The notes under the pieces were generated by a model. It did no database searches. It was not told the origin of the DNA and worked only from the letters and a program-made list of their open reading frames with translations. Below are positions 20,006 to 63,118 of a DNA stretch of 64,000 nucleotides, one piece after another (position 1 is the first letter of the stretch; every line of letters begins with the position of its first letter). Location: positions 186,001 through 250,000 of IMG/VR virus record IMGVR_UViG_3300002143_000235; one strand, 5' to 3'. Origin of the DNA: a virus. A program made the position numbers and the translations under genes.

Positions 20006-20033
20006 GTATTATTAATTGAACAATACAAATATA
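20006..20033 (-). promoter_or_regulatory. conserved promoter-leader element
   Basis: TATATTTG, then TATTGTTCAATTAATAA, then about 10 nt to the ATG at 19997. One of at least eight near-identical copies in the window. The leader contains ATTG-TT-CAAT, a small inverted repeat. Confidence 0.75.
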
Positions 20034-29033: not shown

Positions 29034-29750
29034 TTATAGTAAATAATCATTTAAAATTAACCATTGTGTTAAATGATTTTTCCATATTACATAACCTGCA
29101 TAATTTATATGGATTCCATCCATTGATTTATCATTACGCTGATATGTAGTTCCTTTTTTATCAATAGCATCTGTAACAATTCCTGGGCGAATATCTAAAA
29201 ATGGTACTTGTTTTTGAATACAAATAGCTTTAAGACTATCGTTCATTATTCGAGATCTTAAAGCTAATACACCGTTGACGGGAAATCCACCATATGTAGC
29301 ATCATACCAATTAGTACTGGGAATAACAGACTGCATTAATAAATTAATTCCTCTAGCTTGTACTGAATCAATAATAGTACGATAATTAGCGCATGTTGTT
29401 GATAATGGTATATTTTGATGAGCATCATACATACCAATTTCAATACATAAAAGATCTGGATTCATATTTAACGCTTCATCTAATAAATTCCATTGCAAAA
29501 GATGTTGAGTTCCAATTGCATCAAATCCATAATTAACAATCGAATCTAATCCCATTAAAGTGTTCCAGTTTGTATCAGGACCCCAATAATGATTAATACG
29601 TCTTGTTTCACTATCACCAAGCATAACAATTTTAAGATTTGCTTCTGTACTTTTGTATAAAGGTAGATCGTGTTTAATTGGTTGAATATTTTGTTTTTGA
29701 CATGAAAATAAAGACATGATAACAAAAATAATTACTGTAATGTGTTTCAT
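29034..29750 (-). CDS. SGNH/GDSL-family hydrolase, predicted lipoprotein, 238 aa
   Basis: N-terminus MKHITVIIFVIMSLFSC is a lipoprotein signal peptide with lipobox LFSC (Cys17), so it should be anchored in the host envelope. The catalytic domain has MLGDSETRR (block I, Ser47), an EIGMYD segment in the place of block III, and DGIHINYAGY (block V) with the Asp-x-x-His pair. SGNH enzymes are esterases or acetyl hydrolases on sugars and lipids. A phage lipoprotein hydrolase could trim surface polysaccharide or block further adsorption; this is inference. Base composition is like its neighbours. Confidence 0.8.
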   Translation of the reverse strand: MKHITVIIFVIMSLFSCQKQNIQPIKHDLPLYKSTEANLKIVMLGDSETRRINHYWGPDTNWNTLMGLDSIVNYGFDAIGTQHLLQWNLLDEALNMNPDLLCIEIGMYDAHQNIPLSTTCANYRTIIDSVQARGINLLMQSVIPSTNWYDATYGGFPVNGVLALRSRIMNDSLKAICIQKQVPFLDIRPGIVTDAIDKKGTTYQRNDKSMDGIHINYAGYVIWKNHLTQWLILNDYLL

Positions 29751-58500: not shown

Positions 58501-61500
58501 ATGGCAAACAAGAAATACAACTCTATTAACGATCAAGCAGCTTCGGCTATGCGTATGAATCAAAACTCACTTGAGTTATTGACTAAGATAGATCAAGCAA
58601 TGTCAAGCTCTGAATCGTATTTAACTGTTAATACAACAGATGCGAGCGGTAATACAGTAACAAGTCAAATTCCAACTCTTGGTTTCCTTCAACAGAAACT
58701 CGATCAGCTCATGAAGTATGTTCAAAAGCTTTCTGGTATCGATGGAAATCCTGCTGCACTTCAGTTGACAAATAATACATTTAAACGTATAATTACAGCT
58801 GATTTAAATAATGAACCAAAAGCTATTGGACAAGTCAATAAAGTTTCTACGTTTAAAACTGATCCCAATTGGATTTTTGATTCATTTTTAAATCCAAAAA
58901 TCAGTGTTGAACTCGATCTTACAGGAAAAATTGCCGATTCTACACGTACAATTCAATCAAAGCGATTTATTGTTGAATTCGATAAAATTGTAACATTAAA
59001 TGTTGATGGCACAGAAGAAGTACAATTAACTACAGATGGTGCATTAAGATTACAAGAATTCAATACAAATTATAAAGGTAACTCAAACATATCTATTGCT
59101 GAATTTGCACAATGGCTTGATAGTCCAGGTGTTGTAAATAGAACTGATGATACACTTATTGATCAAGATTTTTTTCGTATTGAACCAAATTTATTACAAT
59201 TCAAAGGTGATTTTTCCGTCATGTCTATGGACATTGATACAGTGAATAAGAAAGCATGGTACATATTGGATACATTTACATATTATGATGTATCTGATTT
59301 ATCAAATACACCAAAACCAATTGATCTTAAAATTGGTGACTTAATTACAGTTTCTCCAAATGAAGAAGGTGTGAAAAGTGTTACTATTTATAAAGTTGTA
59401 GAAATTTCAACTATTACATCTGAATACCGTGTTCGTTTTGAACGTGTCTTTGGTGAAGAACCTATTCCAATTAAATTAGATGCTATTAGATTTTACTCTG
59501 ACCGTATCGCTAAACGAGCTGTAAGAATCTCAGTAGGTTTTGATGAATACTGTGTACTTTTTGTAAAACAAGTTGATGATCTTTCAAATATTATTGGACT
59601 TGATTATTCACCAGGTGTTGGATTTTACACAAGTGAACTTCGTTTAGATAATGATGCAGGAGAACTTTTTTCAGATTACTATGTAAGAAAGGTATATGAT
59701 TATGGTGTTGCATTAGAAGATCTTGTTGAAAAGAAAACACCAAATGCTTACGGTATTAAACCAAATCCTGTTGTATTAGCTTCTGAAAATTTTAAAGTCG
59801 TTCAAATTAACCAGCATTTAACACAAACTGTTGAAGCTGAAAAGATCCGTGATCTTCACAATCAGAAAAATAATATTGCTTCACAAGCTGTTCAATTACA
59901 AACAGCAATTGAAGGTTTGAATCGTCAAATTCAAACCACGAAGTTTGATTCAGAGGCTGATAGAAAAGCTGCAAGTGATCGATTGATTGCTCAGTCAAGC
60001 AAGTTGAATAACATAACTGAAACAAAAAATAAACTTGTAGCAGAAATTTTAGCAAACAAAAAGAATCTCAACAAGATTAAACCAATCTATGCTGTTCGTG
60101 GATTCTTCCCAATGCCAATTGCAGCAGCTTCAACAAAAACAAAACCACAAGAAGCGGTTCAATTTGAAATCTGGACAAGACGTTTGTCTAAGTCTGGTGA
60201 TGAGAACCCTATTTTAACAATTACTGATATCAATAATGATGCTGCTAAAAATAGCTCACCATTAAATACAAATATTTTATCAAACCTTAGTAAACCTAAA
60301 AAAGTAAATGGTGCATTTTCTAACTGGGAAAAATACCGCACTGATGCACGTAAGCGACAAAAGGATCCAATTACTGGTGAGTGGTTGTGGGAGATTATTG
60401 ATGTTGCAGATGCATCTACACCAAATATTAATCAGATTGATATATCTATTAATCCTGGTGAAAAAATTGAAATCAAAGTAATCACACTTTCTGAAGTTGG
60501 TTGGCCAGAAGCACCATTGGAATCAGATTTTTCAAACATATTAGAAATTGCATTTCCTGATGATCTTGATTCTGTATTGAATGAAGACGACTTCATTCTT
60601 AAAGAAGCACAGATTGATGATCTGAAAGTTTCTATGGATCGTGATCTTGAAGCTCGTGGACTTAATATTCACCTTAACTCTGCTATTCGTGACAGTGATG
60701 TTTATTATGCACACAAGGCTGAAACAATCACATCAGGATTTACAACACCTGAAGGTAAAATTATTTCACTTTATGAACAGCTACGATTAATGATGTCTAA
60801 AATCACATCACTTGAAGAAGCTGTCAACAAAGCTAAAGGTATTCTTGAAGTTTATTTAGTAAATAGTGGTAATAAAACAAAAGTTTTCAAAGGTAATAAT
60901 TTAACATTCAACTTGAATCTTGAAGATTTCATGACAAAGACAAAGATTGGTCTTGTATCAAGTCCAGTTGATTCTTCATCACGTACATATGAAAATGAAC
61001 TTATTCGTATTGATAACTACTCAATCATGATTAAAAATGGTGCTGAATCAGCTAATCTTGGTATCCTTGCTTTTAGTGGTTATGGACAACCTAATGGATT
61101 AAGCCCTTCAACATATGCTTATGATGGAACAGGACCATTTGCTGGTCGTGCTATTCAAGGAACATTTATTGCGCCTGATGGTAAATTCCTTACAAATAAT
61201 ACAACAACAAATTCTGCACTTGCTATTACAGCAGCACCACAGTTTGCTACACAGAAGAACAATCAGTTCTTATGGTTACAATTGAAAGATGTTGCTGGTA
61301 ATCAAATTTATGGTGCTGCAACATCTCAAACAACAAATGCATTCTTTCCAACGTCTTACGTGAATGGTGCTTCGGCTGTACATGATCTTGTGAAGGATCT
61401 TACAAAAAATGTTGGTTTATTAGCTGGTCCTGGTCAATCTTATGTTGCTACTGGTATTAATAGTATTACTGATCCAACAAACTGGACAGTATATGAAGAT

Positions 61501-62304
61501 CCAACATCTGTTGCTGCAATTCGTGGTGGTATGGGTACAACTATTCACCCAGTTATTTCTGGTCTTGATGTCATTACTGATACATCGGCACAGTTGACTC
61601 GTTACATCAAACCAGGTGATACTGAAGCATTGACTATCCCACTTCAAATATTTGCAAAAGCTTTTACAGGAAGTGCATGTGGTGAATACCCATTATCAAC
61701 TGGTATCTTTGATGATTCAGCTGAATTACCTACAGGCGATATGCCGGTTTTAACAGGTAACATTGCTAAAAGTCCTACAGGTAATCAATTACGAATAGAG
61801 GTGAATACTGCTGGTACATCTTCTATTCCTTTATTTAAAGTAGGTGATCGTGTTATAATTAATGGTTTTCAGCATGCTGATACAATAAATGCGAACCTTA
61901 AAATATATAATGTAACAGCTGTTGGTGCAACATATATTCAAATCAATTATTCATTACCAGCTGGTTCTACAATAGGTATATCTTATGCAGCTGATGGTGG
62001 TGTACTTGCGGTAATTCAATTACATAAGCGTTACATTAATAGTGGTCTTCTATATAACTATAATGTATTAGGTAATATTTCAGGTTTTGCTAAATATGTA
62101 AGTAATTATGTTGAAGTTAATAGTGGCACATCACCAACTCCAACGGTTCATACTAAAAAGCTGAATTTTTATTTACAAGATGAGAATAGTCCACAACCGT
62201 TCACATTTCAGTTAACATTTAATATTACACAATTTAAACCATTAGTTATTTCTCAAAGTCAAAGTAACACTATAATACAAGGTCTTTCTTTAGGTGGATT
62301 CTAA
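58501..62304 (+). CDS. large virion (tail/baseplate) protein, 1267 aa
   Basis: Very large, low-cysteine protein typical of phage structural genes. The N-terminal ~80 residues are helical (NDQAASAMRMNQNSLELLTK), then beta-rich domains; a coiled coil lies at about 440-520 (LQTAIEGLNRQIQTTKFDSE), followed by fibronectin-III-like strands (VQFEIWTRRLSKSGDENPIL; KIEIKVITLSEVGWPEAPLE) to about 700, a helical link, and a long beta region rich in S, T, N and G to the end. No enzymatic motif. Baseplate or tail-associated location is inferred from the size, domain style and neighbours. Confidence 0.75.
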   Translation: MANKKYNSINDQAASAMRMNQNSLELLTKIDQAMSSSESYLTVNTTDASGNTVTSQIPTLGFLQQKLDQLMKYVQKLSGIDGNPAALQLTNNTFKRIITADLNNEPKAIGQVNKVSTFKTDPNWIFDSFLNPKISVELDLTGKIADSTRTIQSKRFIVEFDKIVTLNVDGTEEVQLTTDGALRLQEFNTNYKGNSNISIAEFAQWLDSPGVVNRTDDTLIDQDFFRIEPNLLQFKGDFSVMSMDIDTVNKKAWYILDTFTYYDVSDLSNTPKPIDLKIGDLITVSPNEEGVKSVTIYKVVEISTITSEYRVRFERVFGEEPIPIKLDAIRFYSDRIAKRAVRISVGFDEYCVLFVKQVDDLSNIIGLDYSPGVGFYTSELRLDNDAGELFSDYYVRKVYDYGVALEDLVEKKTPNAYGIKPNPVVLASENFKVVQINQHLTQTVEAEKIRDLHNQKNNIASQAVQLQTAIEGLNRQIQTTKFDSEADRKAASDRLIAQSSKLNNITETKNKLVAEILANKKNLNKIKPIYAVRGFFPMPIAAASTKTKPQEAVQFEIWTRRLSKSGDENPILTITDINNDAAKNSSPLNTNILSNLSKPKKVNGAFSNWEKYRTDARKRQKDPITGEWLWEIIDVADASTPNINQIDISINPGEKIEIKVITLSEVGWPEAPLESDFSNILEIAFPDDLDSVLNEDDFILKEAQIDDLKVSMDRDLEARGLNIHLNSAIRDSDVYYAHKAETITSGFTTPEGKIISLYEQLRLMMSKITSLEEAVNKAKGILEVYLVNSGNKTKVFKGNNLTFNLNLEDFMTKTKIGLVSSPVDSSSRTYENELIRIDNYSIMIKNGAESANLGILAFSGYGQPNGLSPSTYAYDGTGPFAGRAIQGTFIAPDGKFLTNNTTTNSALAITAAPQFATQKNNQFLWLQLKDVAGNQIYGAATSQTTNAFFPTSYVNGASAVHDLVKDLTKNVGLLAGPGQSYVATGINSITDPTNWTVYEDPTSVAAIRGGMGTTIHPVISGLDVITDTSAQLTRYIKPGDTEALTIPLQIFAKAFTGSACGEYPLSTGIFDDSAELPTGDMPVLTGNIAKSPTGNQLRIEVNTAGTSSIPLFKVGDRVIINGFQHADTINANLKIYNVTAVGATYIQINYSLPAGSTIGISYAADGGVLAVIQLHKRYINSGLLYNYNVLGNISGFAKYVSNYVEVNSGTSPTPTVHTKKLNFYLQDENSPQPFTFQLTFNITQFKPLVISQSQSNTIIQGLSLGGF

Positions 62305-62331: not shown

Positions 62332-62375
62332 AGAACTTTTTTCCATTTTTATTTTTATATGTGGAAAAAAGTTCT
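62332..62375. promoter_or_regulatory. 14-bp perfect inverted repeat overlapping a promoter
   Basis: AGAACTTTTTTCCA (62332-62345) and TGGAAAAAAGTTCT (62362-62375) separated by 16 nt. It lies after the 1267-aa gene and its right arm ends in the first base of the next -7 box, so it may act as an operator for the T9SS-protein promoter, as a terminator for the structural gene, or both. Confidence 0.6.
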
Positions 62376-62400
62376 ATCTTTGTATTGTTCAATTAATAAT
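62375..62400 (+). promoter_or_regulatory. conserved promoter-leader element
   Basis: TATCTTTG (62375-62382) followed by TATTGTTCAATTAATAA on the + strand, 13 nt before the ATG of the T9SS-sorted protein. First of two + strand copies. Confidence 0.75.
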
Positions 62401-62413
62401 TAATACAGAAAAT

Positions 62414-63070
62414 ATGAAAGCAATTATCGCAACACTTATTCTTACTTTGATTTCAACATTTACATCAGCACAGACCTTTGAAGCGACATTTGTTGACGGA
62501 ACAGAGTATTCAAATTCATCTAATATAATTGATGTGTATGATTCATACACAGGATTAGATACATTTTTTGTATACTCTCATTCAACTTATCAGTTTTTTT
62601 ATGAAGAAACATCACTTGGAACATCATTGTATACAATATCTGGTAGTTCAGTATTTTCATATGATGATACGAATACTACTGATTTTATTACTACAATTGA
62701 AATTGACTTTTCATTAGTGCCCGTTGATTCTTCTTATATTTTAGATTTTCAATTTCCAGGTAACGGAAATTTACGATGTGTTATCAAAGTTATTGATGAT
62801 ACAAACCTTGGAATCAACGAGACTTTTAAAGAAGATGTTCAGTTAAGTGTATTTCCTAATCCAGTTGTTGATTACGTGACTGTACGATTCAATACTGAGA
62901 ACAATGATGTTCCGGTTTATGTTTACACACTTGGTGGTCAATTAGTTTATACAGACAATGCTTCTCGTTATACTGGAGCAAATGTTGTGACTGTTGACTT
63001 TAGCTCTTTCAATACAGGTATCTATCTTGTTAAAGTTGGTGGATCTACTTTCAAAGTGATCAAGAACTAA
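62414..63070 (+). CDS. secreted protein with type IX secretion C-terminal sorting domain, 218 aa
   Basis: Starts with a Sec signal peptide (MKAIIATLILTLISTFTSAQ, cleavage likely after AQ). The last ~75 residues are a textbook type A T9SS sorting domain: VFPNPVVDYVTVRF (146-159), VYTLGGQLVYT (170-180), then VDFSSFNTGIYLVKV (194-208) and KVIKN at the very end. The ~120-residue cargo part is beta-rich and serine/threonine rich, without a recognised domain. T9SS exists only in Bacteroidota, so the protein should be carried by the host machine across the outer membrane and attached to the surface or released. A phage encoding such a substrate is unusual. It has its own promoter-leader and terminator. 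Confidence 0.85.
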   Translation: MKAIIATLILTLISTFTSAQTFEATFVDGTEYSNSSNIIDVYDSYTGLDTFFVYSHSTYQFFYEETSLGTSLYTISGSSVFSYDDTNTTDFITTIEIDFSLVPVDSSYILDFQFPGNGNLRCVIKVIDDTNLGINETFKEDVQLSVFPNPVVDYVTVRFNTENNDVPVYVYTLGGQLVYTDNASRYTGANVVTVDFSSFNTGIYLVKVGGSTFKVIKN

Positions 63071-63089: not shown

Positions 63090-63118
63090 AAAAACTGAGT
63101 AATTTACTCAGTTTTTTT
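63090..63118 (+). terminator. terminator after the T9SS-sorted protein
   Basis: AAAAACTGAGTAA (63090-63102) and TTACTCAGTTTTT (63104-63116) form a perfect stem around one base, followed by more T residues. Confidence 0.85.

Follow-up and report, generated by a model that had tools for sequence, protein, structure and literature searches.

Export labels for the host type IX secretion system on a small protein encoded by a probable Bacteroidota jumbo phage

Why would a phage encode a small protein that appears to be addressed to the secretion machinery of its host? The question arises from an open reading frame at 62414-63070 (+) of the window analyzed here, a 64,000-nucleotide stretch that spans positions 186001-250000 of a 313,708-base IMG/VR virus record. 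In many Bacteroidota the cell surface, with gliding adhesins that are thought to be phage receptors, is built by the type IX secretion system (T9SS), and a phage able to send proteins of its own through this system would have control over the exterior of the cell that it infects. A preliminary description of this DNA, which placed the frame at exactly these coordinates, proposed that the 218-aa product has a signal peptide, a complete type A T9SS C-terminal sorting domain (CTD), and no known cargo domain, and that it is encoded by the phage as an autonomous transcription unit. For the exported protein it suggested roles in marking the infected cell, blocking superinfection, or surface modification, none of which the cargo sequence points to.

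The description of the product holds up in each of its parts. Both visual inspection and a hydropathy script mark the N-terminus, MKAIIATLILTLISTFTSA|QTF, as a classic signal peptide (residues 1-19, 62414..62470, +), with a predicted cut at SA|Q (TSA|Q) that leaves the Bacteroidota-type Gln at position +1; according to a passage of PMC10653852, this Q-rule, a Gln after the signal peptide cut, is expected in Bacteroidota. Residues 146-218 (62849..63067, +) form a predicted type A CTD. The TIGR04183 search that had been proposed as a check gave a full-length match to these residues (profile positions 1-72 of 72, 36.4 bits, E 3.9e-9) against a curated cut-off of 23 bits, and PF18962 matches residues 146-215 with 44.2 bits (E 2.4e-11) against a cut-off of 27 bits. 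All of the motifs previously listed are found, namely FPNP (147-150), GGQLVY, GIYLVKV, and the C-terminal KVIKN, and the Lys near the C-terminus, K217, is invariant across the four phage proteins compared. TIGR04131 is absent from the results of the general NCBIfam scan of this protein, and type B CTDs (CHU_C/gliding type, PF13585) are absent from the phage genome. Between the two export labels lies a cargo region with a linker (residues 20-145, 62471..62848, +) that is acidic (pI 4.05 for residues 20-131) and Ser/Thr-rich, with Ser, Thr, Asp, and Phe all abundant. As had been noted, the cargo belongs to no known family: it has no match in Pfam, NCBIfam, PHROGs, or PADLOC, and none to a superinfection-exclusion family in the same four collections. 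The whole protein has no close relatives in the viral or species-genome collections, the latter comprising 84,980 species genomes searched at a sensitivity suited to close relatives.

An AF2 model of the protein, built from a two-sequence alignment, is too poor for fold assignment (mean pLDDT 37.7); within the CTD it contains six predicted strands at a pLDDT of about 50-60, the type A CTD being a 7-strand beta-sandwich. A Foldseek search with the model gave no match at E<=0.001, and we claim no fold. A profile of the 218-aa protein and three phage counterparts matches CTDs in the PDB, 8GLK with E 1.7e-6 and 8GLJ with E 1.7e-4, both of which were solved inside the F. johnsoniae translocon (PMC10994853). 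That work describes CTD motifs that specify the fold, a single near-C-terminal Lys that is almost invariant, and type A substrates that are carried out by PorV and then released or linked to LPS (PMC10994853). Because the profile matches translocon-bound CTDs and the conserved Lys is kept, export via the host T9SS is the natural reading of the sequence, and we consider the 218-aa protein very probably a T9SS substrate. With type A cargo as represented by TIGR04183, PF18962, and the F. johnsoniae structures 8GLK and 8GLJ, it has in common the signal peptide, the complete CTD, the C-terminal Lys, and the Q-rule start; it differs in being phage-encoded, in lying behind a phage-wide leader, and in having cargo of no known family.

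The surroundings of the gene bear on whose gene it is. Elsewhere in the 313.7-kb record there is a terminase (E 3.3e-29) as well as baseplate genes. The GC content of the gene is 31.7%, compared with 32.0% for the genome, and its codon use is ordinary for the phage (rank 63 of 244). Upstream, a promoter -7 box, TATCTTTG, of the Bacteroidota TAnnTTTG type is joined to the phage-wide leader GTATTGTTCAATTAATAATTA (62375..62402, +). This upstream sequence, TATCTTTGTATTGTTCAATTAATAATTA, is a member of a 17-copy family: the pattern TA..TT[TC]GTA.TGTTCAATTAAT occurs at 17 sites in the phage, on both strands and mostly just 5' of ORFs, with the copies inside the window at 20033, 22072, 24125, 24776, 27083 (-), 62375, and 63153 (+), and the next gene (63187) is likewise preceded by the leader. 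Only the longer leader is taken as evidence, because the enrichment of TAnnTTTG upstream of ORFs is weak (62 ORFs versus 52 in an antisense control). Downstream, a 12-bp stem with a T-run (63090..63116, +; z -4.2) is the predicted intrinsic terminator. Given its own copy of the phage-wide leader, its ordinary GC and codon use, and the terminator after it, the gene is, as far as sequence features can tell, a moron, an autonomous unit of transcription flanked by a structural-type gene and by a further gene driven by the leader. The promoter-leader and terminator of the preliminary description were thus recovered, and its Bacteroidota host logic agrees with the type of the -7 box and the Q+1 residue; from these two features and the kin of the phage (PMC7162821) we infer a Bacteroidota host and, likewise, a host T9SS.

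Directly 5' of the -7 box is a 15-bp near-perfect hairpin, GAACTTTTTTCCA...TGGAAAAAAGTTC (62332..62375, unstranded; -18.7 kcal/mol, z -6.5), which is possibly an attenuator or operator. In lacking a T-run it differs from the hairpins of terminator type that accompany other leader copies; about half of these copies have a strong hairpin immediately upstream, for example GTGATAC-GTATCAC with a T-run. Hairpin, promoter, and leader make up a compact module, TA[TC][AC]TT[TC]GTAnTGTTCAATTAAT.

The gene on the 5' side encodes a 1267-aa structural-type protein (58501..62304, +; phrog_29329, E 1.3e-80) that serves as a synteny anchor. A 58% identical relative of this neighbor is found in IMGVR_UViG_3300037606_000137 (L017), where the same order of polB, AAA ATPase, small ORF, and a 1263-aa gene is seen and where, directly 3' of the 1263-aa gene, there is a 209-aa protein with a signal peptide (FG|QQ) and PF18962. 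The CTDs of the 218-aa and 209-aa proteins are 40% identical over 90 residues, while their cargo regions cannot be aligned by BLAST. Three indications, namely a leader used throughout the phage, unremarkable GC and codon use, and a syntenic gene in another phage, mark the gene as native to the phage, in keeping with its original description as phage-encoded. With polB and the AAA ATPase as queries, the only further relatives of the locus were that same contig and a 70-kb fragment without PF18962. Just 3' of the syntenic CTD gene, at L017:12731-14308, lie paralogous proteins made of 'KLSESFISEHKDKVSWYDIS' repeats. The next relatives of the 1267-aa neighbor are in environmental phages of 634-735 kb (33-36% identity, and 34-36% for the largest huge phages) and then in a 462-kb phage (27%), followed by more distant ones, at 23-28%, in Lak, PAU, Tenacibaculum, Chryseobacterium, and Flavobacterium phages.

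PF18962 matches occur in each of the five huge environmental phages (462-735 kb) that encode the neighboring structural gene, above the cut-off in four and below it in LR756500; the eight smaller or Lak relatives searched (PAU, PTm5, pT24, MaF61, MA9V-2, and three Lak phages) gave none. Judged by size and source, the LR records appear to be the huge phages of PMC7162821, in which the predicted hosts of five genomes of >634 kb are Bacteroidetes. Several of the phage CTD proteins are very small, at 186-218 aa. Small proteins with a signal peptide and CTD, of 186 and 199 aa, are encoded by two of the huge phages, next to tail-fibre-like ORFs and a DnaJ-like gene, and two 136-aa ORFs, in LR756501 and LR745206, contain little beyond these two labels. 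Other proteins tagged for secretion in related huge phages are a subtilase, a Fib_succ_major protein, and one with a beta-propeller; at L044:1495-3189 (-), a subtilase (PF00082) with a signal peptide and a type A CTD is encoded on a phage contig that has a 35% relative of the 1267-aa neighbor. Type B CTDs are above the cut-off in LR756502 and LR745206, two of the five huge phages, and in the subtilase contig. When these type B CTDs were used as queries, relatives were found to be encoded by 450 IMG/VR stretches, on contigs of up to 436 kb (L055-L134), not all of which need be viral since IMG/VR contigs can include host sequence. All 14 of the large type B contigs checked pass PF13585, and most give a terminase-like match in a loose test that is also positive in most bacterial controls. 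T9SS cargo looks common among Bacteroidota virus contigs. PorP/SprF accessory genes (PF11751) gave no match, and the controls were equally without one, so that this negative carries no information.

The explanation that we favor is a moron whose product is exported by the host T9SS and then acts outside the infected cell, and we give this explanation, taken whole, an even chance of being correct. In this view a jumbo phage of Bacteroidota carries an accessory gene with its own transcription, whose product would enter the periplasm by Sec, with the signal peptide removed at SA|Q. The CTD would fold into a beta-sandwich and be recognized by the host PorV/SprA translocon, and the product would be released or become attached on the outside of the infected cell; that the T9SS exports the product and that the CTD is removed are steps that we infer. 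Outside the cell, the fast-diverging acidic cargo would mask or change receptors against competing phages or otherwise alter the surface. Surface masking or change, including phage exclusion, seems the most likely role because the delivery labels are kept while the cargo changes fast. The cell surface is also a plausible battleground, because phage resistance in flavobacteria accompanies the loss of gliding, with the receptors thought to be part of the gliding machinery (PMC7345892). Our estimate for a surface function of this class, be it receptor masking or change, exclusion of competing phages, or another surface alteration, comes close to an even chance, and the class may have functions besides exclusion, because the putatively secreted proteins of related phages include a subtilase and a Fib_succ_major protein.

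The 218-aa protein could instead be a secreted public good. It would then act on the environment as an adhesin or binding domain that aids host nutrition, aggregation, or phage spread in biofilms during a long infection, a reading in line with the subtilase, beta-propeller, and Fib_succ_major proteins that related huge phages tag and with the glycosidases tagged by Cryophage (PMC7468147); we think it rather unlikely for a 218-aa protein that has no catalytic or binding family. It is also conceivable, if improbable, that the cargo needs no activity and that the CTD carrier is a decoy, occupying PorV/SprA and lowering the display of host adhesins or receptors so that exclusion follows. The small size of several phage CTD proteins (186-218 aa, and 136 aa for the two in LR756501 and LR745206), the retention of the CTD while cargo diverges, and the very large contact surface between CTD and translocon (PMC10994853) would suit a decoy. 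Normal substrates, however, are pulled out and released, and jamming would require high expression or a release defect; moreover, the joining of CTDs to real enzymes (subtilase) in other phages of the group argues for delivery. A broader conjecture, which we regard as a long shot, is that the largest known Bacteroidota phages have a lineage-wide T9SS-addressed arsenal whose smallest members are decoys that, by occupying the translocon, rid the cell of receptors displayed through the T9SS and so close it to competitors.

The lack of a recognizable cargo domain would also fit a relic, in which the signal peptide and CTD are leftovers of a host gene once captured and the product is without a present role, but the signal peptide, CTD, and position are all kept in a phage whose neighboring protein has diverged to 58% identity, and the gene has a dedicated promoter and terminator, which together make a relic very doubtful. 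T9SS CTDs come from bacteria and abound among Bacteroidota, as would be expected if a bacterial T9SS gene had been joined to a phage contig during assembly. The chance of such an artefact is nonetheless close to negligible: the leader before the gene is phage-wide, GC and codon use are normal, the syntenic counterpart in a second phage contig contradicts it, and the 84,980 species genomes hold no relative at the close-relative sensitivity of the search. Host contamination was rejected on the leader, the codon use, and the synteny.

Phage-encoded T9SS cargo is already known (PMC7468147, PMC6949934). It was reported for Cryophage by Bellas et al. 2020 (PMC7468147), which likewise encodes type A CTD proteins with variable cargo, and here, as there, the CTD gene sits in a genuine phage genome, marked in the present record by a terminase, baseplate genes, and a phage-wide leader. 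The Cryophage cargo consists of known domains (endoglucanase, GH39, PA14), whereas the present protein is small, belongs to no assigned family, and is encoded by a jumbo phage, and its counterparts are found in huge phages. In 2019, ORFs with T9SS sorting domains were described near crAss-BACON ORFs (PMC6949934); these too encode CTD proteins on contigs of Bacteroidota phages, where they lie upstream of the section with the head genes, but the phage lineages and the cargo (BACON) differ from ours. P. gingivalis phages encode Q-rule exported proteins, which are alike in this form of export, and the passage of PMC10653852 that describes them is silent on a T9SS CTD. In the literature searched, mostly without subscription papers and preprints, we found neither the recurrence of type A and type B CTDs in huge phages nor a comparable syntenic small cargo gene. 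With our results, T9SS cargo of phages moves away from the single "unique occurrence" on record and toward a recurring trait of huge phages (PF18962 in 5/5, type B as well in 2/5), and the T9SS labeling shared by the huge relatives means that such phages probably coat or modify the outside of the cells they infect.

A further candidate, P0001 (327 aa, L003:16532-17515), lies 17 kb past the window end and has a predicted signal peptide cut at AA|Q. Its C-terminal region appears to resemble T9SS substrates, and residues 204-323 share 40% identity with part of LR745206; having no Pfam or NCBIfam match, it was rejected as a recognized CTD protein and is kept as a candidate only. The ORF before it contains an internal signal peptide of the Q-rule type, and the two adjacent ORFs with such signals, of which P0001 is the second, occupy L003:15726-17515 (window +79.7 to +81.5 kb). 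Inside the window, at 29034-29750 (-), a GDSL lipase (PF13472) carries a lipoprotein-like signal.
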